A DNA stretch of 33,025 bases from Candidatus Aminicenantota bacterium (GTDB taxonomy: Bacteria > Acidobacteriota > Aminicenantia > Aminicenantales > Aminicenantaceae): positions 1-33,025 of the forward strand of contig JAGGYH010000097.1 in the NCBI GenBank assembly GCA_021162615.1, read 5' to 3'. The translations under genes were made by a program, and so were the position numbers. The notes beneath the pieces were generated by a model. The model was not told the origin of the DNA. It searched no databases and saw only the letters and a program-made list of their open reading frames with translations. Positions 3,937-22,160 of the stretch are shown one piece after another (the first letter of the stretch is position 1; each line of letters opens with the position of its first letter).

Positions 3937-4890
3937 ATGAAAAGCTCAAAACAGACCAAGGTTATCATATTTTTCAGTCTGTTCATTTTTTGTCTTTTTA
4001 TCTTTACTTCCTGTCAAGGCAAGGAAGAACGATTTACTTTTGCTTATTTGACTGATATTCATGTGCAGCCGGAACTGCATGCTGATAAAGGATTTCTGCA
4101 GGCTGTCAATGCGGTCAATGAGTTAAAGCCTGATTTCGTGCTGACCGGAGGCGATTTAGTGATGGATGCCATGGCGCAGCCGTATGAAAGGGCTTGTATG
4201 CTCTATGATATGTATAAGAATATTTCCGGAAATTTTGAAATGCCGGTTTACAACACCATAGGAAATCATGAGAATTTCGGGGTCAGCAAAAGAAGCGGTG
4301 CGGATCCGTCACACCCTGAATTCGGGAAGAAAATGTACCAACAACGGATTGGTGAACTCTATTATTCTTTTGACCACAAGGGCTGGCATTTCATGGTTCT
4401 GGATTCAATCGGCTTGCCTCCGGATTCCTCTTATGCGGGTCTGGTCGGTGAAGAGCAGATGGAGTGGATTGCACAGGACCTTCAGTCCGTTGCTCAAGAG
4501 ACTCCTATCGTCATAAGCACTCATATTCCTTTGGTTACCGCATACCCTCTGTTCAGCGGCAATCCTGTGGGGGATGAAATAAACAGCCTGGTCGTCAATG
4601 ATGCGCATGAAGTTCTGGAGCTTTTCAAAGAGCATAATCTGAAGCTTGTGCTTCAAGGCCACCTCCATATAATTGAAGATGTCTCTATCGGAGGCATACG
4701 CTTTATAACGGCCGGGGCTGTATGCGCGAACTGGTGGGAAGGGCCCCGTGACGGGATGGAAGAGGGCTTTGTTCTCGTCCATATTCAAGGAGAGGCTATC
4801 GAATGGGAATATATTGATTTTGGATGGGACCCCACTCAGTTCGAACAGCAAGAGGATGGAGATAATCCAAAGCAGTCAGAAAAAAAATAG
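3937..4890 (+). CDS. Calcineurin-like metallophosphoesterase, predicted lipoprotein
   Basis: Lipobox-like FTSCQG; motifs LTDIHVQ, GGDLVMD, GNHENF, STHIPL, GHLH; AAGGAG RBS. Confidence 0.88.
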   Translation: MKSSKQTKVIIFFSLFIFCLFIFTSCQGKEERFTFAYLTDIHVQPELHADKGFLQAVNAVNELKPDFVLTGGDLVMDAMAQPYERACMLYDMYKNISGNFEMPVYNTIGNHENFGVSKRSGADPSHPEFGKKMYQQRIGELYYSFDHKGWHFMVLDSIGLPPDSSYAGLVGEEQMEWIAQDLQSVAQETPIVISTHIPLVTAYPLFSGNPVGDEINSLVVNDAHEVLELFKEHNLKLVLQGHLHIIEDVSIGGIRFITAGAVCANWWEGPRDGMEEGFVLVHIQGEAIEWEYIDFGWDPTQFEQQEDGDNPKQSEKK

Positions 4891-4902
4891 GAGGATTTTG
4901 AC

Positions 4903-7689
4903 ATGTCTCAAAAAAGATCATATTCAATTTTTTTGGGAATTTTCCTGGTCATAATTTTAATCGGGACAAAGCCGCTGGGTTCTTTTGAGATAAAAAAACC
5001 CATGACGTTTCAGGACATCATGAAGTTTAAGGAGATCCATGATGCGGTTCTTTCAAACAACGGTCTCTGGGCAGCCTATTCAGCGGTACCGGATAGAGGC
5101 GACGGAGAAGCTGTGATCAAAGATTTAAAAAACGGAAAGGCCTATGTGCTAGAAAGAGGCACAAAGCCTGTTTTTACGAAAGATTCCTCATGGGTTGGAG
5201 TGGTTTTAAAACCGGAAGCTTTAAGGATTCTCGCAGAAGAAAAAGAGAAACCGAAAAACGGGATGGCTCTTTTGGAACTGGAAACAGGAAGTGTTTCGAA
5301 AGTTGAGAATGTCAAATCCTTTGCGTTTTCTGAAGATTCCTCATGGGTGGCTTATCATCTTTATAAAAAGGAAGAGAAAGAAAAAAAGGAAAAGAAAGAG
5401 GGGAAAAAAGAGGGAAGCAAGGAGACGGGTACTGATCTGGTCCTCATGAACCTCAACTCAAGAAAGGAGATTCACATTCCTTATGTGTCCGGTTATTGTT
5501 TTGATAAATCTTCCCGGTTTCTGGCCTACACGACCTTAAAGCCGGAAGGAAAAGACAACAGCCTGGGCGTCATTGACCTTGCCTCTAGCCTGGAAGGCCA
5601 CGAGGATATCATCAGGGAAGACGGAAAGAAATTTTCCGCACTCACCTGGACTGAGAAGGGAAGCAGACTTGCGTTTTCAGCTTCAGGAGATTCAGAGGGA
5701 AAAACGGGTAAAGTGTGTCTTTATATATGGGATGGGATTGAGAAAAATTTAATGCAGGTCCTTTCTTCGGATAAAGCTCCTGAAGGATGGGTTTTGCCTG
5801 AAAGGAATGATTTGTCCTGGAGTAAAGACAGCCGCCGTCTTTATTTCGGATTCCTTCCAAAAGAGATAGCCGAAGCCAGCCGTGTCAGAGAGGAGAAAGA
5901 GAAAGAAGACCCAGAGCAGGAAGACATTTATGATGTGAGCGCTATTCTTGAAAAAAGAGGAGTGGATGTATGGCACTGGGATGACCCTTTGATCAATCCT
6001 CACCAGAAAAATATGTGGCCCCGGATAAAGGAGCAGACTTATCTTGCTGTTTATCATACGGATACAGGCGGGTATATACAGCTTGCTGACAGGGATATGC
6101 CCAGGGTCCTCACAAATGAGAATGAGAATTATGCCCTGGGATTCCTGGACGCTCCTTATAGAAAAATGATTACATGGTATGGACAGATGAATGACCTCTA
6201 TCTCATAAACCTCAAGGACGGAAGCCGCACGCTCATTGTATCCCGCTTGGAGGACAGGGTTTCCCTTTCTCCAGAAGGCCGTTTCGTGGTCTATTACAAA
6301 GACAGGAACTGGTATATTTTCGACACCTCCTCAAGGGAAAGCCGGAACCTTACCGGGAATATTGGAATCCCTTTTTACAATGAAGACCATGATTATCCGA
6401 GTAAAGTGCCCGGATATGGAGCGGCAGGCTGGCTGGAGGGAGATGAAGCTGTATTGATCTATGATAAATATGATATCTGGAAATTTCCCGCTGTTGAGGG
6501 CCTGCCTGAGAATATAACCGGAGGTTTCGGCCGTCAAAACGACTATACTTTCCGCATCATCCGGCTTGATCCTGAAAAGGAATTTTTTAGCCTGAGAGAA
6601 CGCCTCCTTCTTTCCTCTTATCATAATCATAAAAAAAATTGGGGTTTTTACAAGGCGCAGCTCAATAAAACAGGTGTTGAAAAGCTTCTTGAAGAAAAGA
6701 AAAAGTTTAATTTTATAGCTAAGGCCAAGGAGGCAGATACCCTTCTCTATACAAGGGAAAGTTACACTGAATTTCCTGACCTCTGGGTCAGCGGACTCAG
6801 CTTAAGTTCTCCGGAAAAGATATCCGATGTGAATCCTCAAATAAAGGATTTTGCATGGGGGAGCGCGGAATTAGTGGAATGGGAAAGTGACGACGGGACT
6901 CCTCTTCAGGGAGTCCTTATCAAACCGGGAAATTATGAGCCGGGAAAGAGATATCCGGTCATTGTCTATTTTTACCGGTTTTTTTCTCAAAGACTTTATG
7001 AGTTCAATCAGGTGGTCATCAATCACAGGCCGTGCTTTCCTTATTATGCCAGCAACGGGTATGCTCTGTTTCTGCCTGATGTGAGATTTGATATCGGGAC
7101 TCCCGGGTTCTCAGCCACAAAGTGTCTTGTGCCCGGGATCCAAAAAATAATAGACATGGGTGTTGCAGATCCGGATGCTGTGGGCCTTCACGGCCATTCA
7201 TGGAGCGGTTATCAGACAGCTTTTGTGATCACCCAGACCGATATTTTCAAGTGTGCTGTTGCCGGAGCTCCGGTCTCTAATATGACGTCTTCTTACGGAG
7301 GCATACGCTGGGGGTCAGGCATGGCACGCCTTTTTCAGTATGAAAAGACACAGAGCCGCATAGGCGCAAGCCTTTGGGAGAGACGGGATCTGTATATTGA
7401 GAATTCTCCTCTGTTTTTTGCCGATCGAATCAATACGCCTCTTCTCATCATCTTCGGGGATGAAGACACGGCTGTTCCCTGGTATCAGGGGATAGAACTT
7501 TATCTTGCTATGAGAAGGCTTGAAAAAGACTGTGTGTTTCTTCAGTACCGGGGAGAGCCCCATCATCCTCAAAAGTATCCCAACAAGCTGGACTGGTTTA
7601 TGAGAATCAAAGAGTATTTTGACCACTATCTCAAAGGAGTGGAAGGGCCCGAGTGGATAACCAAAGGAGTCCCGTACAGAGGAAAGTGA
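4903..7689 (+). CDS. S9-family (prolyl oligopeptidase/DPP-like) serine peptidase
   Basis: Beta-propeller-like N-terminus, C-terminal catalytic motifs GLHGHSWSGYQT (nucleophile), FGDEDTAVPW (Asp), GEPHHP (His); K/E-rich insert EEKEKKEKKEGKKEGSK. Confidence 0.88.
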   Translation: MSQKRSYSIFLGIFLVIILIGTKPLGSFEIKKPMTFQDIMKFKEIHDAVLSNNGLWAAYSAVPDRGDGEAVIKDLKNGKAYVLERGTKPVFTKDSSWVGVVLKPEALRILAEEKEKPKNGMALLELETGSVSKVENVKSFAFSEDSSWVAYHLYKKEEKEKKEKKEGKKEGSKETGTDLVLMNLNSRKEIHIPYVSGYCFDKSSRFLAYTTLKPEGKDNSLGVIDLASSLEGHEDIIREDGKKFSALTWTEKGSRLAFSASGDSEGKTGKVCLYIWDGIEKNLMQVLSSDKAPEGWVLPERNDLSWSKDSRRLYFGFLPKEIAEASRVREEKEKEDPEQEDIYDVSAILEKRGVDVWHWDDPLINPHQKNMWPRIKEQTYLAVYHTDTGGYIQLADRDMPRVLTNENENYALGFLDAPYRKMITWYGQMNDLYLINLKDGSRTLIVSRLEDRVSLSPEGRFVVYYKDRNWYIFDTSSRESRNLTGNIGIPFYNEDHDYPSKVPGYGAAGWLEGDEAVLIYDKYDIWKFPAVEGLPENITGGFGRQNDYTFRIIRLDPEKEFFSLRERLLLSSYHNHKKNWGFYKAQLNKTGVEKLLEEKKKFNFIAKAKEADTLLYTRESYTEFPDLWVSGLSLSSPEKISDVNPQIKDFAWGSAELVEWESDDGTPLQGVLIKPGNYEPGKRYPVIVYFYRFFSQRLYEFNQVVINHRPCFPYYASNGYALFLPDVRFDIGTPGFSATKCLVPGIQKIIDMGVADPDAVGLHGHSWSGYQTAFVITQTDIFKCAVAGAPVSNMTSSYGGIRWGSGMARLFQYEKTQSRIGASLWERRDLYIENSPLFFADRINTPLLIIFGDEDTAVPWYQGIELYLAMRRLEKDCVFLQYRGEPHHPQKYPNKLDWFMRIKEYFDHYLKGVEGPEWITKGVPYRGK

Positions 7690-7732
7690 ATATCACACAA
7701 AAAATATATCAATGAAATCAAAGGAGGAATCA

Positions 7733-10264
7733 TTGAGAAAAATAAAAGCATTTCTGGGCTTGATTATTGTTTTGTTTTTGTTTCAGAGCGCAGCGGCTGA
7801 GATCCGGTCACCGCAGGATTTTTTGGGATTTAAAGTCGGAGCAGACAGGAAACTGGCGGATATGAATCAGATTATTGATTATTTCATGATTCTCGGAGAG
7901 CAAAGCCCCCTGATTGAGGTGGAAGAAGTGGGCAAGACCTCGATGGGAAATCCCTTTATCGTGGCTGTGATCACTTCGGAGGACAATCATAAGCATCTTG
8001 AAAAATATAGGCAGATCCAGCAGAAACTTGCAGATCCGAGAAAGCTGAAATCCGGGGAAGCGGAAAAACTTATTTCAGAGGGAAAAGCAGTGGTCATGGT
8101 GAATTGTTCTATTCATGCCACTGAAATAGCAGCCTGTCAGATGTCCATGGAGCTGGCTTATGATATGGCTGCAAAGAGAGACAAAACGACAAAAGAGATT
8201 CTGGATAATGTCATATTGATTTTAACTCCCATGCATAATCCTGACGGGATTCAAATGGTGGTTGACTGGTATAAAAAGTATCTCGGCACCAAATATGAGG
8301 GAGGGCGGATGCCCTGGCTTTACAATAAATATGTTGGTCACGATAATAATCGCGACTGGTTTATGTTCACACAGAAAGAAACAAAATTAACCATAAAAGT
8401 CCACAACGCATGGCATCCTCATGTGATTGTGGATATGCATCAGATGGGGAGCACGGGTCCGAGATTGTTTGTTCCTCCGTATGTGGATCCTTATGAGCCG
8501 AATATCGATCCCATACTCAGGCAGGAAGTGGCTATGATGGGAACATTCATGGCTACGGAACTTACATCAGAGGGAAAAGGTGGGGTCATGCACAGTATGG
8601 GATTTGATGCATGGACTCCGGCAAGAGCCTATCACCATTATCACGGAGGAATCCGTATTCTCACTGAGGCGGCCAGTGTCAAGATTGCAACCCCCATCGA
8701 CGTTCCGTGGGAAAGACTGAGCCCTCAGGTCAAACAGGAATCCGTAAGCATGCCCCTTCCCTGGAAAGGCGGGAAATGGACCTTAAGGGATATTGTGGAT
8801 TATGACTATTCTGCTGTTAGGGCCGCACTGACAAATGCGGCCCGTCTCAGGGAAAACTGGGTAAGGAACTTTTACCTGATTTTTAGAAAAGCAGTGGAAC
8901 AGACCGAGCCTCCATATTCTTATATCATTCCGGAAAAACAGCGTGACCTTTCCACTGCATTGAAAATGCTTGACATTTTAAAGACAGGCGGAGTGGAGAT
9001 ACACCGAGCTAAAAAACCTTTCACAGCCGGAGGATTCGAATACCCTGAAGGGACCTTTATCGTGTATATGGCGCAGCCGTTCGGAGGATTTGCGAAAACC
9101 CTGCTCGAACCTCAAGTCTATCCGGAAATAAGAGAGTTTCAGGGCGGCCCTCTCAAAACACCTTATGATGTGGTGGGCCACACCCTTCCTTTTCTGATGG
9201 GAGTCGAAGCAGTAAAAGTGGATGAGCCGTTTGAGGCAGAGACGCGGCTGGTAAAAGGGATAACAAAGCCTGCTCCGGTGATAGAACTTAAGAAAGGGGC
9301 GCTCTTTTACGTATGGGGTCATGAATCAAATGATGATATCGTGGCAGCTAACAGGCTTTTGGATAAAGGATATACCATTTTTTGGGCTGCTGAGGAATTT
9401 TCTTCTGAAGGGATGCTCTATCCTGAAGGAACCATGCTCATAAGGTGTTCTGACCGTACAGAGGATGACCTGAAAGCGGTTTCAAAAAATCTTCTTATCC
9501 GTTTCAGAGGCATAGAAGAGGAACCCGGAATAAAAGCCTATGTCTTCCGGAAACCGAGAATCGGCCTTTATAAAAGCTGGACAGCTTCCATGGATGAAGG
9601 GTGGACCCGGTTTGTTCTTGAGCAGTTTGAATTTCAATATAAAAGCCTTTTTGACAAGGACATAAGGGCGGGGAATCTTGCGGAAGATTTCGATGTCATT
9701 ATTTTTCCGGATCTCAGCGACAGGGCCATTTTCCAGGGAGTGCCGGAAGAATCTTTTCCTCCTGAATATGCCGGAGGAATAGGGGAGATCGGAGTAAAAA
9801 ACATGGAAGATTTCATTCAAAGCGGGGGAACGCTTGTGACTATGAATTCTTCTTCCGAATTCGGGATTAAACGCCTGCACATTGGCGTAGAGGACCGTGC
9901 TTCAGGGCTCAGGCGGGATGAATTTTTCATCCCCGGTTCTTTGCTCGCTGTTATCAATGATCGTGACCATCCCATAACTTATGGTTACGGAAGAGATGCG
10001 GTTGTTTTTTTTAGAAGAAGCCCGGTTTTTAAGGTATTTGAGGGAAGAAGTGTTGTGAAGTATGCTCCGGAGGCCCTTTTGAGCGGCTGGATCAGCGGAG
10101 AGGAGCATTTGACCGGCCATAGCGCCCTGGCGGATGTTCCGTTTGGAAAAGGAAGGGTTATCTTAATTGGATTTCCCGCTCAGTACAGGGCTCAGTCTCA
10201 CGGGTCCTTTAAATACTTTTTTAATTCCCTGTTTTATGGAGCAAGCACATTAAAGGATATGTGA
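7733..10264 (+). CDS. M14-family zinc carboxypeptidase-like exported protein
   Basis: NCSIHATEIAACQMS (HxxE zinc site), VDMHQMG (third ligand region), ILTEAAS (catalytic Glu region); TTG at 7733 follows GGAGG better than ATG 7712 and begins a signal peptide. Confidence 0.85.
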   Translation: MRKIKAFLGLIIVLFLFQSAAAEIRSPQDFLGFKVGADRKLADMNQIIDYFMILGEQSPLIEVEEVGKTSMGNPFIVAVITSEDNHKHLEKYRQIQQKLADPRKLKSGEAEKLISEGKAVVMVNCSIHATEIAACQMSMELAYDMAAKRDKTTKEILDNVILILTPMHNPDGIQMVVDWYKKYLGTKYEGGRMPWLYNKYVGHDNNRDWFMFTQKETKLTIKVHNAWHPHVIVDMHQMGSTGPRLFVPPYVDPYEPNIDPILRQEVAMMGTFMATELTSEGKGGVMHSMGFDAWTPARAYHHYHGGIRILTEAASVKIATPIDVPWERLSPQVKQESVSMPLPWKGGKWTLRDIVDYDYSAVRAALTNAARLRENWVRNFYLIFRKAVEQTEPPYSYIIPEKQRDLSTALKMLDILKTGGVEIHRAKKPFTAGGFEYPEGTFIVYMAQPFGGFAKTLLEPQVYPEIREFQGGPLKTPYDVVGHTLPFLMGVEAVKVDEPFEAETRLVKGITKPAPVIELKKGALFYVWGHESNDDIVAANRLLDKGYTIFWAAEEFSSEGMLYPEGTMLIRCSDRTEDDLKAVSKNLLIRFRGIEEEPGIKAYVFRKPRIGLYKSWTASMDEGWTRFVLEQFEFQYKSLFDKDIRAGNLAEDFDVIIFPDLSDRAIFQGVPEESFPPEYAGGIGEIGVKNMEDFIQSGGTLVTMNSSSEFGIKRLHIGVEDRASGLRRDEFFIPGSLLAVINDRDHPITYGYGRDAVVFFRRSPVFKVFEGRSVVKYAPEALLSGWISGEEHLTGHSALADVPFGKGRVILIGFPAQYRAQSHGSFKYFFNSLFYGASTLKDM

Positions 10265-14658: not shown

Positions 14659-15309
14659 TTATAGTACACATAAAGAACCGTTTGAGTCAATTATTTGTTG
14701 ACGCTTCACGATTTGAGAGGACGTAGAGCCAAGAGCTTTGCGGATGCCGATCTCTTTGGTCCTCTGTTCTGCCATATATGCAGACAGGCCGAAAAGCCCT
14801 ATGCAGGCGATGATGATGACAAAAACCGCAATAGCGATCATGATGTAGACATACAGGATGTTTCCGTTGGGTTTTATCTCACTAGATAGGTGTGATTTGA
14901 GATGGATATCTTGGATAGGCTGGAGAAAATAATTGTAACCATTCCCCGCCCGAGTGTAATCTTCAAAAGATATTCCTGTTTCAGCTTGTATTTGACCGGC
15001 TGCGTATTGTTCCACAAGAGCCGGCATTTTTTGTTCAATGACCTCCGGCGAAACACCTTCTTTTAAAAGCACATAGGTGTGGACAGAAAAGCTCACATAA
15101 TTGGGCTGGCGGTCAAAGCCAATGGGCTCTAATGCACCTAAAAAGTCAAATCCGCATTTTTAACACTCTGGTCATGTCTTCGATTTCTGGAAAATCTGTT
15201 TTCATGGCGGGGCCTATGCCTGAGGGAATTAAAGCATGACATTTATTAAAGAAGAGGATTTATCTTTCCAGAAATTTCTGAATGCGACCTTGATGAGGTT
15301 TTTAATCAT
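14659..15309 (-). pseudogene. Eroded FtsX/MacB-type ABC transporter permease
   Basis: RBS AAGGAG, then MIKNLIKVAFRNFWKDKSSSLINV (15309-15238), then SGIGPAMKTDFPEIEDMTRVLKMRI*, then FLGALEPIGFDRQPNYVSFSVHTYVLLKEG...GLFGLSAYMAEQRTKEIGIRKALGSTSSQIV in another frame, then an unrelated C-terminus and stop; large internal pieces are missing. Confidence 0.85.
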
Positions 15310-17987: not shown

Positions 17988-18060
17988 GCGCCCGTAGCTC
18001 AGCGGATAGAGCGGTGGACTTCGAATCCAAAGGTCGGGGGTTCAAATCCCTCCGGGCGTG
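17988..18060 (+). tRNA. tRNA-Arg (anticodon TCG at 18021-18023), 3' CCA not encoded
   Basis: Acceptor GCGCCCG/CGGGCGT, D arm GCTC-AGCGGATA-GAGC, loop CTTCGAA, T arm GGGGGTTCAAATCCCTC; one mismatch at 27-43. Confidence 0.93.
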
Positions 18061-18066
18061 CTTTCT

Positions 18067-18093
18067 CTAACTTCTTATAAATAGGGGAGTTAG
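18067..18093 (+). other. Inverted repeat/hairpin just downstream of tRNA-Arg (possible processing or termination element)
   Basis: CTAACTTC (18067-18074) pairs with GGAGTTAG (18086-18093), 8 bp with one G-U, 11-nt loop; no clear U-tract. Confidence 0.4.
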
Positions 18094-18321
18094 TGATATT
18101 TTGGGGAAGATGTCTTTTTCCTCTTTCTTCTCTCATTGTATCAGCCAGTATAGAGTTTAACACATGCAAATATGTCACAAAATTCACTCATTTTAGTAGC
18201 TTTTTGCTTGGTCTGCTGATAAGAGGTCAACTGATTTTCTTTTCAATGTTTCTGTCAAGTGAAGATATCTTTGAGTTATTGCGATTGAGTTATGACCCAT
18301 TTAAGGACAGGAATATCAATC

Positions 18322-18597
18322 GCTTCTGTCGAAGTGAAACGGGCCGAGGTCGAGCCTGGGCATCCGATGATTCTGATCGTTCGGCAGTGTGAACTTCTGA
18401 ATTTACCGCGGTCATCGTTTTATTGCGGTTCTTGCGGCGGGGACGGATACAACCTGCTGCCCATGCGTTTGATCGATGAAGACTTCACGAGACATCCGTT
18501 CTGCGGGGAAGGCCTGGATCACGGCTTCGTATTCCTGACCGTGGTCATGGACCGGCTTTCTCGCTATGTTCTCTCTTTGAGGTTGTGGTTTAACATG
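18322..18597 (+). mobile_element. Degenerate IS3-family transposase (OrfB) remnant with internal deletion
   Basis: VEVKRAEVEPGHPMILIVRQCELLNLPRSSFYCGS...LPMRLIDEDFTRHPFCGE, then abruptly LDHGFVFLTVVMDRLSRYVLSLRLWFNMD, matching separated parts of IS3-family OrfB. Confidence 0.85.
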
Positions 18598-19752
18598 GAC
18601 CGCCGGCAGTATATATCCGTATAGGAACTCAAAAATTCTTCTCTTTTGTTCTTCCGACTGTGTGTCCGCGTTGACCGCCACGACCATGTCATGTTCAGGC
18701 ACGATAAAGATATATTGACCCTTTGCTCCCCTGGCTGCATAGATATATTGTTGTTCGTCTCCCTGCGGATCCGGCCTTTGAATCCACCAGAGATATCCGT
18801 ATCCCACGATATCCTGACCTGTGTTTCCAAAATCGACGTGCATTTCAAAGGATTCTCGAATCCAGTCTTCCGGCACAACCTGTTCCCCTTCCCACTTTCC
18901 TTTATTCAGATAGAGTAATCCGAAACGCGCCATATCCCGTGTTCTGAGAGCCAGGCCGCCGCCTGTATGGGGGTGTCCTTCCTGATTTTTAACCCAGAAT
19001 TTCTTTTCAATTCCTAGAGATTTAAAGAGAGTTTGTTCCGCGTATACATCTGCGTGCATTCCGGTGCGGCTTTTCAAGATTGCGGAAAGCAGAATCACTC
19101 CGCCGCTGTCATAGTTGAAATTCTTTCCCGGTTCGCCGGCCATAGGACGATTCAGATAGAATTTGTCCCAGCCCGTGGGTGTCCGGTTCAATCGATGATG
19201 AGGGGAATCCTGCCCATTTTCATGATAATCGACTCCGCTCCTCATGGTCAGGAGATCTTTCAAGCGTATGGAGGCTTTGCGTTCATCCATGTGAGCAATA
19301 TCTTTCATGTCGGGAAAAAAATCGAGGATTTTCTCGTCCACACCCTTGATGTCTCCTCGGGCAATAGCTATTCCGATCAAGGCGGAAGTAAAGCTCTTGG
19401 TCACAGACTGTAGGATATGAAGGCGCTCTCCATTCCAATTGTTGAAATACTCCTCTACGACCAAACAGCCATGGCGGACAACCAGGAGGCTTTGAATCCG
19501 GGGATAGCGTTGTCCCTTACGTATCAGGTCGACCAGTTCAGCCAACTTCCCCGAATCAAGTCCCTGCTCCGCCGGAGAAGATATTTTCCATTGGAACGAG
19601 GATGAGTTAGGTCGCGCGGGAGAGCTTGTCGCTAATTCCCGGCCGCCTATGAAGCAGGCCATGGCGACGGACAGACCGAGGACGTGGAGCAAGGAATAAA
19701 CGGACTGCTTTCGCAGATGACGAAAAGCCATTCTGACGTGGGTTTTAAACAT
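18412..19752 (-). CDS. Serine hydrolase (class C beta-lactamase-like) with chimeric N- and C-termini
   Basis: LLVVRHGCLVVEEYFNNWNGERLHILQSVTKSFTSALIGIAIARG (SxxK), NYDSGGVILLSAIL (YxS-like region); first 35 aa MFKTHVRMAFRHLRKQSVYSLLHVLGLSVAMACFI look like an FtsX/MacB permease N-terminus; last 61 aa are antisense to the IS3 remnant. Confidence 0.8.
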   Translation of the reverse strand: MFKTHVRMAFRHLRKQSVYSLLHVLGLSVAMACFIGGRELATSSPARPNSSSFQWKISSPAEQGLDSGKLAELVDLIRKGQRYPRIQSLLVVRHGCLVVEEYFNNWNGERLHILQSVTKSFTSALIGIAIARGDIKGVDEKILDFFPDMKDIAHMDERKASIRLKDLLTMRSGVDYHENGQDSPHHRLNRTPTGWDKFYLNRPMAGEPGKNFNYDSGGVILLSAILKSRTGMHADVYAEQTLFKSLGIEKKFWVKNQEGHPHTGGGLALRTRDMARFGLLYLNKGKWEGEQVVPEDWIRESFEMHVDFGNTGQDIVGYGYLWWIQRPDPQGDEQQYIYAARGAKGQYIFIVPEHDMVVAVNADTQSEEQKRRIFEFLYGYILPAVHVKPQPQRENIARKPVHDHGQEYEAVIQAFPAERMSREVFIDQTHGQQVVSVPAARTAIKR

Positions 19753-20214
19753 GATTAGCCTCCGGAGCGAAGCTGAATGACACGCCTTGTCCGCGCCGTG
19801 CAGCTTTTTATTGTAATGATGGGATATTCGTTTTTCTGTTGGTGTTTATTTTTACTTGATTTAATCAAATTCACATCCTTTAAGTAACTTTACCACCCAT
19901 CATACATATGAGACTTGGGTCAAGTCAACAAGTGATCCACAGAAAAGAGAGAATATCAGAAAATCAGCAGGCTGAATATCCCTGAAGACGATAAAAAAAA
20001 TATAAAAAGAAAAATAAAAACCAGATTTTTGTTCTCTTTATTGTTGTCTTTCATAAAAATCGGATCCGTATATCATCAACGAGAAATTTATGAGTTGTTT
20101 AATATCAAAATCATGAAAAGCGGGACTTCTGAAAAAAGAAATTGAAATAAAAAAAGATAAGGAATAACATAAACAGCATGAAAACATTCAAACAGTTATA
20201 GAAAAAGAGGAAAA

Positions 20215-20583
20215 ATGAAAAAAACAGCTCTAGTATTGATTTGTCTCATAATACTCAGTGGCAGCTGCAATATCTTTAACAAAGAAGCCCACTGTCTCAT
20301 TGTAGGAGAAATCACTATGCAGCAAGATACTTCTGGAAATGCTGAATTTCTTGGAGAAATAAAAAATGATGGGGATGAAAAAGCATTAAATGTAAAGATT
20401 ACATTCACAATCAAAGATTCTGGGGAGAACGTCCTTGATACGGCCTTCACTTATATCGATTCTAATGATTTGGATCCTGGACAAACAAGCAGCTTTGATT
20501 GTTTATCGAATGCTCCGTATTCTCAAGTTTCTTCGTATGAATATGAAATTAAATGGAATGAGTCAGCTACGGCTCTTTTTTAA
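20215..20583 (+). CDS. Small lipoprotein, FxLYD-like domain
   Basis: Lipobox-like LSGSC; EFLGEIKNDGDEKALNVKITFTIKDSGENVLDTAFTYIDSNDLDPGQTSSFD resembles FxLYD proteins; GAGGAAA RBS. Confidence 0.7.
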   Translation: MKKTALVLICLIILSGSCNIFNKEAHCLIVGEITMQQDTSGNAEFLGEIKNDGDEKALNVKITFTIKDSGENVLDTAFTYIDSNDLDPGQTSSFDCLSNAPYSQVSSYEYEIKWNESATALF

Positions 20584-21943
20584 TTAGGGTTATGGGTCGA
20601 GTGTCAGAGAAGTAAAATATCATGTCGTAAGCTGTGGCTAAATTAATGATCCTGTCCTCTGCAAAATGTATTTCCGGATAAGTGGCGCTGTAAAAATCTC
20701 CCACTCCAAAAAAAGGCCTTTCTTTATTTATATACGTATATAAATTTCCTGTTCTTGATATTCCTTTGATGTCGAGGATAAAATTCTTATAATCAGCCTG
20801 ACAGAAAAGATAGTTTACAGAGTTTTCAGGGGAAAAGATATTTAATTTCCATATAATGGGATTGGTGTCTTCACCAAAATAATCCTCTGTGACGGCAACA
20901 AACTGGCCTTCTGTGAATCCCGTTCCGATGACCAGATATTTATCTCCCAGCTTTTCTCTGAGATATCTTCCCATAGCAGGGCTTCCGTCTCTTGCATAGT
21001 GGGGATCATTGGCCACATGGGCGTTATGGGCCCAGACAGCTACTTTGGCTTCGTTCCCAACGATTTCTTTAAGCCATAAGACATGTTTAGCCATATGACT
21101 GTCTCTTAAGGATTTATTCTTATACATCCAGTAACGGTTTTCATGGGAGAGAATATGAGATTCGATGTTGTGCAGTAAAAGGTCTCTCTCCATCTTATCT
21201 TCCCCTGAATTGGAATGGTTAGAGAAAAACACCAGGGTCTTGTCTTTTAATGAAATCAGTAAATTTTCTATTTGCTGGAATTCTTCTTGTTTTAATTTTT
21301 GGTGATCTATCTTTCCCCATTTGGACAACGTATCCAGAATTTCAGAAACAAATTCATATAAATCTTTGTCATATTGAAAAAAGTGCTGGCTGAGTTCGTC
21401 GAGATACCAGATATCGATTTGGCTGTCTATTCCTATGAAATGAATCATATCTTCCTTTTGAAGGCTTGAGTTGTATTCCCGCATCCATTCGATCAATCCT
21501 CTGAATTCCTTATTTCGATGGATCCAGTGCAGACCGGAAAGGATGGAATCCAAGTCTCCCTTCCTTGAAGTAATATAGTTCTCAATCTCTAAAGATCTTT
21601 GAAACCGAAATCCGTATTCAAAACCAAGAGCTCTGCAGTTATGATTTTCTACGAGGTATTTGAAGATCCGCTGCTTTAGCTCGAAGAATTCTTTGACTCC
21701 ATGAGAGTCTTCGCCGAGACCTATGATTTGGGCGTTTTCAAAATAACTATCAAACTTGCGAAAGACCTCATCCTTGTATTGCAATGGAGAGACACTCGGA
21801 AGTTGGGTAATATTTTTATTTAATTCCTGAAGTGCCGTGATGTCTTTGTCCTGGGAATGATCACAGGAGGAAAAGAGAAAAACCAAAGTGATTACAGGCA
21901 GAATAGATAAAAAGAGGACCGGTTTTCTTGTGTTCTTAAGCAT
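20567..21943 (-). CDS. Erythromycin esterase-like family protein (predicted exported/lipoprotein)
   Basis: IIGLGEDSHGVKEFFELKQRIFKYLVENHNCRALGFEYGF, GLHWIHRNKEFRGLIEWMREYN, VAVWAHNAHVA; N-terminus with FLFSSCD lipobox-like. Confidence 0.82.
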   Translation of the reverse strand: MLKNTRKPVLFLSILPVITLVFLFSSCDHSQDKDITALQELNKNITQLPSVSPLQYKDEVFRKFDSYFENAQIIGLGEDSHGVKEFFELKQRIFKYLVENHNCRALGFEYGFRFQRSLEIENYITSRKGDLDSILSGLHWIHRNKEFRGLIEWMREYNSSLQKEDMIHFIGIDSQIDIWYLDELSQHFFQYDKDLYEFVSEILDTLSKWGKIDHQKLKQEEFQQIENLLISLKDKTLVFFSNHSNSGEDKMERDLLLHNIESHILSHENRYWMYKNKSLRDSHMAKHVLWLKEIVGNEAKVAVWAHNAHVANDPHYARDGSPAMGRYLREKLGDKYLVIGTGFTEGQFVAVTEDYFGEDTNPIIWKLNIFSPENSVNYLFCQADYKNFILDIKGISRTGNLYTYINKERPFFGVGDFYSATYPEIHFAEDRIINLATAYDMIFYFSDTRPITLIKKEP

Positions 21944-22092
21944 TCTATCATGACCTTTCTTTTTCGTATTATGGTTTTATGGACATTTATAAAGAGAATT
22001 TATTTAAAAACCAACGAGCATTTGGGAATAATACTTTTTTGAAAAGACCCAGTCAATAAAAAGAAGAAGAAATAAGCGAATCGAACTATATC

Positions 22093-22121
22093 TTGACCTT
22101 TAAAACACGTGGAATTAATAT
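22093..22121 (+). promoter_or_regulatory. Candidate sigma70-like promoter upstream of ferritin-like gene
   Basis: TTGACC at 22093-22098, 17-bp spacer, TAATAT at 22116-22121. Confidence 0.4.
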
Positions 22122-22160
22122 GAAAAATGCGAGAAAAATAAATAACGGGGAGGGAAAGAA

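Follow-up and report, generated by a model that had tools for sequence, protein, structure and literature searches.

Is an open reading frame that begins like an ABC permease, continues as a serine hydrolase and ends antisense to an insertion sequence a functional gene, or a by-product of rearrangement that happens to remain open? The question is raised by a 446-codon frame in the window, by which we mean the whole 33,025-base contig analyzed, in a draft genome of 2.85 Mb and 146 contigs. A sequence-only reading had described this frame as a double chimera, with the captured first transmembrane helix (TM1) of an FtsX/MacB-type permease at one end and a tail supplied by an IS3 relic at the other. 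The double chimera, the ORF, its boundaries and the antisense register were borne out, the chimera as supported by sequence comparison; an IS91-type element end immediately upstream had been missed, and the view of the tail as an acquired part seems in need of revision (see below). The features discussed are as follows:

17988-18061, plus strand: tRNA-Arg(TCG), left edge of a segment absent from the same-genus genome
18313-18600 (about), plus strand: relic of IS3 orfB, lacking 72 internal codons and broken mid-gene at the hydrolase junction
18412-19752, minus strand: chimeric ORF, 446 aa plus stop (stop codon 18412-18414)
18415-18597, minus strand: tail running antisense through the IS3 relic (residues 386-446, predicted disordered)
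18598-19605, minus strand: serine hydrolase core (residues 50-385)
19606-19647, minus strand: linker (residues 36-49)
19648-19752, minus strand: start of a MacB/FtsX-type ABC permease, comprising its N-terminus and a shortened TM1 (residues 1-35)
19759-19763, minus strand: Shine-Dalgarno-like GGAGG, 6 nt before the ATG, read from the sequence
19816-19967, minus strand: IS91-type end repeat, full-length copy of ~152 bp, pointing at the chimera
19899-19928, minus strand: TTGACT-18-TATGAT, a sigma70-like promoter within the repeat (10 of 12 matches), outward to the chimera

The hydrolase core and its relatives

The only Pfam domain in the 446-residue protein is PF00144, the beta-lactamase family (residues 88-370, 103.6 bits against a cut-off of 27), and the catalytic motifs are intact, with S-x-x-K present as S116-V-T-K119, Y-x-N/S as Y214-D-S, and K/H-T-G as H262-T-G. 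By profile and motifs, the protein would be assigned to the class C-like PF00144 family. It was not recognized as a class C beta-lactamase, i.e., an AmpC-type resistance enzyme, as NF033085 from NCBIfam scores 14.4 bits against a cut-off of 415 and the other NCBIfam class C beta-lactamase models score equally far under theirs. Sequence and Foldseek searches match Lsa45 (8dc1), PIB-1, EstG and 6-aminohexanoate-dimer hydrolase. Among named GTDB genomes, the core has its closest recovered relative in a Candidatus Aminicenantes bacterium.

A hydrolase at L014 (contig G018:C138) is 85% identical to the window core (residues 49-385), with DNA homology over window positions 18599-19605 and nothing further within the 6.6-kb stretch compared. 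Further relatives, at 53-63% identity, align from query residue 37-53 to 384-387, and a broken one (L126) covers residues 85-392; residues 1-36 and 393-446 are covered by no match more than 50% identical. The complete relatives (53-85% identity) carry leaders of their own and stop 1-6 codons past the equivalent of ILPAV. No close homolog with either end of the chimera was identified in the 95 genomes of the order or in a GTDB contig scan, homologs with both ends in genomes lacking the IS3 relic being what the sequence-only reading had named as evidence against itself, and the fusion was found in no second genome (38 genomes of the family, the 95 of the order, GTDB contig scan). A hydrolase gene of a type that occurs elsewhere in the same family of bacteria has been rearranged at both ends, receiving a foreign start and a foreign tail. 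As a separate observation, the unfused hydrolase of one relative (L055, G009:C34) has a complete permease gene beside it on the other strand (4006-5112 and 5179-7845), so the two gene types can be neighbors.

The dN/dS ratio against L014 is 0.09 (dS 0.96, 337 codons, Nei-Gojobori with Jukes-Cantor). Purifying selection acted on the hydrolase core in the past, although this signal may largely predate the fusion. At positions where at least four of the five other homologs agree, the window protein and L014 have four private departures each, and the fused copy thus gives no hint of accelerated decay. This bears on the main competing explanation, namely that the gene was recently stranded and is decaying: the same rearrangement would have occurred, but the ORF would be open by accident, with no useful expression or export and with stops not yet collected. 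We regard this as a serious possibility with a somewhat less than even chance. Besides the lack of an excess of unusual substitutions in the core, the 446 codons without a frameshift or an internal stop argue against it; evidence in its favor is found in the regions flanking the core. An AlphaFold model based on seven sequences has a helix at residues 3-35 and a mostly confident core, with pLDDT below 50 at residues 31-50 and 388-446.

The permease-derived front end

Residues 1-35 do match the start of FtsX/MacB-type permeases, as had been claimed, with identities of 43-56% from Met1 onward. Three permease starts of the same genome align without gaps (43-49% identity, E 1.3e-4 to 6.2e-4; frames of 795-857 aa), and the best match, L057, reaches 56% over 36 aa (E 9.9e-11, 9.2-kb search). 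The DNA likeness to permease starts of other genomes ends at query base 912, which is window position 19649 and the end of codon 35. One could argue that this N-terminus is a native hydrolase leader resembling a permease start by chance, given that hydrolase leaders are likewise basic and then hydrophobic and that the likeness spans only 35 aa. However, ungapped matches from Met1 to many permeases, their end at codon 35 at the DNA level, and the fact that the leaders of the hydrolase relatives are unrelated to that of the window make a chance resemblance hardly credible.

Between this segment and the core, 14 residues (36-49) of unassigned origin have no DNA match to L014 or to the permeases, and the 5' junction can thus be placed only within 19606-19648. 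The join is in frame and lies behind a good Shine-Dalgarno sequence, both of which speak against a stranded gene.

A profile search, in which the profile included the window sequence and so inflated the window's own score, retrieved 24 permease-start matches in the source genome and up to 128 in one relative. All 47 other permease N-termini inspected (42 passing a simple script pattern and five judged by eye) run on into a permease, and only in the window ORF does an enzyme follow. Since permease starts are very common, ready-made N-in export signals in these genomes, their capture could recur; no recurrence was seen among those 47. Short frames checked for foreign domains on other permease N-termini turned out to be contig ends or permease relics. 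In a set of 29 permease starts, N4 and G30 never vary and K17 is conserved in 97%, while the window protein carries T, A and S at these positions (N23, A9 and R11/G26-type positions, fixed by the search pattern, were left out of this count). The replacement of near-invariant residues fits a release from permease constraint, via reuse or decay, and is among the points in favor of a stranded gene.

The basic start and the hydrophobic stretch of the permease N-terminus are retained, the latter being only ~19 residues long, with a histidine and a mean hydropathy peak of 1.9, which counts against the explanation proposed below. TM1 of FtsX/MacB permeases has an N-in topology, which is the right one for a signal anchor, and the permease helix may be the exporter or anchor of the enzyme. 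The periplasmic MacB domain and the C-terminal FtsX domain are absent from the protein, in which Pfam finds only PF00144; judged by its domains, the chimera is no permease despite the permease N-terminus and TM1 in its first 35 residues.

The IS3-antisense tail and the surrounding DNA

On the plus strand, the ORF at 18292-18624 matches a full-length IS3 OrfB frame of 293 aa that lies elsewhere in the genome, on contig C105 (54% identity over relic residues 8-72 and 57% over relic residues 75-104). The matched stretches are 216 bases apart in C105, which indicates an in-frame deletion of 72 codons in the relic; no complete integrase core was found in it (rve, 12.9 bits only). At 18598, give or take a few bases, the IS3 match breaks off in mid-gene and the hydrolase match begins. 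Given that the tail frame and the relic frame both have codon starts at 1 mod 3, the last 61 residues are antisense to the relic codon for codon. This register had been recognized in the sequence-only reading, whereas the extent it gave for the relic (18415-18597) covers no more than what lies beneath the tail, the relic itself spanning about 18313-18600.

As the native stop lies only a few codons further in the relatives, the IS3 junction cost the hydrolase little more than its stop, and the frame then continues antisense through orfB, reaching the next stop after 61 codons. From the stop-complement codon frequency of C105 orfB, the chance that such a frame is open is about 18%, so that its openness needs no selection, a point that also favors a stranded gene. 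The tail, with its pLDDT below 50, looks like a read-through following stop loss rather than an acquired module, and any role for it would be a matter of inference. A YqaJ match of the tail (E 0.069), below the cut-off, was taken as chance.

The chimera lies in DNA that differs from that of a same-genus genome. The tRNA-Arg(TCG) is 96% conserved in G001, the sole same-genus genome compared, where it is followed by 11 kb of quite different genes (window 18062-22158 versus L052 2278-13277), and the two genomes are similar again only from window position 22159. The DNA 3' of this tRNA is a candidate for a variable site, and a search for a flanking attachment-site repeat copied from the 3' end of the tRNA found none. 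A MacB/FtsX-type permease relic is located at 14662-15309 on the minus strand; it retains an N-terminus (15309-15238) and a C-terminal fragment, while parts of the middle are gone. It was considered as the other half of the same permease gene and rejected, having an N-terminus of its own. Together with the difference from G001, this decayed permease indicates that the neighborhood turns over readily. Such relic-rich surroundings (the IS3 relic, the decayed permease and a solo IS91-type end) are also what would be expected around a stranded gene. The route of rearrangement was likely an IS-mediated deletion or rearrangement.

The IS91-type end, a proposed explanation and known systems

The ~152-bp repeat, not noticed previously, lies 63 bp upstream of the chimera start codon. 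Searches with the upstream DNA recovered at least 12 copies in the source genome and others in relatives; at nine distinct loci the repeat lies downstream of the C-terminal sequence of an IS91-type Y2 transposase (EDEDPFIPSKGWAEMIKKV...) or of a PF04986 match. The window copy is a solo end, with no transposase beside it. Hexamers similar to its promoter-like site occur in most other copies. Promoter-like matches in the region (four versus a shuffle mean of 4.8) are no commoner than in shuffles, which counts against the explanation proposed below. In many copies a co-directional ORF begins within about 10-210 bp, and the repeat frequently stands alone, immediately before genes of the same orientation (window 19816-19967; L093-L109, L114-L119). 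The repeat, with its conserved outward sigma70-like site, is possibly a mobile promoter of these bacteria. The oriIS end of ISCR1, a relative of IS91, carries two outward promoters, which add to the expression of downstream genes (PMC13393415), and by analogy the IS91-type end is a plausible source of the chimera promoter. IS91-like transposition, thought to be able to move adjacent genes (PMC13393415), is likewise plausible as one agent of the rearrangement. A search for structured RNA in the leader with Rfam returned the tRNA only.

Several contig ends carry the IS91-type repeat and, in a draft of 146 contigs, this raises the possibility of an assembly chimera, in which sequences lying apart in the organism would have been joined in one contig. 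However, both junctions are outside repeated DNA: DNA searches covering 18066-18640 and 19600-20560 recovered neither junction a second time in the same genome, only the diverged repeat at up to 78% identity, which makes an assembly error unlikely. In addition, coincidence at two false junctions at once would be required for a single open frame to result. We consider this explanation very improbable.

We slightly favor, at little better than even, a rearranged hydrolase that is transcribed from the IS91-type end, exported N-in by the permease start, and placed outside the inner membrane with a tolerated tail. The comparisons show that the native leader gave way, without a break in frame, to a permease's start codon, ribosome-binding region and first 35 codons, and that the last codons and stop were lost at the junction with the broken IS3 element. 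In the proposal, transcription would start at the outward promoter just upstream, and the basic permease start (MFKTHVRMAFRHLRKQ) with the shortened TM1 would direct N-in export, so that the hydrolase, whether anchored or released, would end up outside the inner membrane. The tail would be inert, a disordered read-through, and the enzyme would still act, like its relatives, as a cell-wall-like or ester hydrolase. The presence of a Shine-Dalgarno sequence and a promoter-like site fits this proposal and counts against a stranded gene. Nevertheless, with the fusion in only one genome, selection after the fusion is not measurable, and thus the stranded gene fits nearly as well. A stronger proposal is that of a working new gene put together from four parts, each mobile or broken: the IS91-type end as promoter, the permease as source of the start signals and anchor, the hydrolase as core, and antisense IS3 for the tail and stop. 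Such a gene would be kept since membrane tethering is useful; we consider this proposal less likely than not.

If expressed, the gene would be an unusually readable case of an exported enzyme being re-equipped, as its parts, the two junctions and the likely promoter source are identifiable, and unfused relatives with native ends allow comparison. With the PF00144 class C-related hydrolases (Lsa45, PIB-1, EstG, 6-aminohexanoate-dimer hydrolase), the protein shares the core fold and the S-x-x-K, Y-x-S and H-T-G motifs; in contrast to its close hydrolase relatives, it alone has a permease-derived N-terminus and a 61-residue antisense-IS tail. With the MacB/FtsX-type permeases of the same genomes it shares the first 35 residues, but it lacks anything past the shortened TM1, and N4, K17 and G30 are replaced. 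Genes are already known to acquire mobile or foreign DNA by in-frame fusion and to gain signal peptides in this way, as in YPO1552 of Yersinia, where part of the signal peptide is MITE-derived (PMC2229807). The window ORF resembles this case in that foreign DNA fused in frame supplies an export signal (here predicted), but the signal would come from a permease gene and a second element gives the tail and stop. As in IS91/ISCR1, the end of a Y2-transposase element with an outward promoter-like site lies beside a rearranged gene, whereas in the window this end is solo, without a transposase, and its promoter is putative. The rearrangement is thus an accident of a known kind, here well resolved, and the fusion gene is a new instance rather than a new kind of system.
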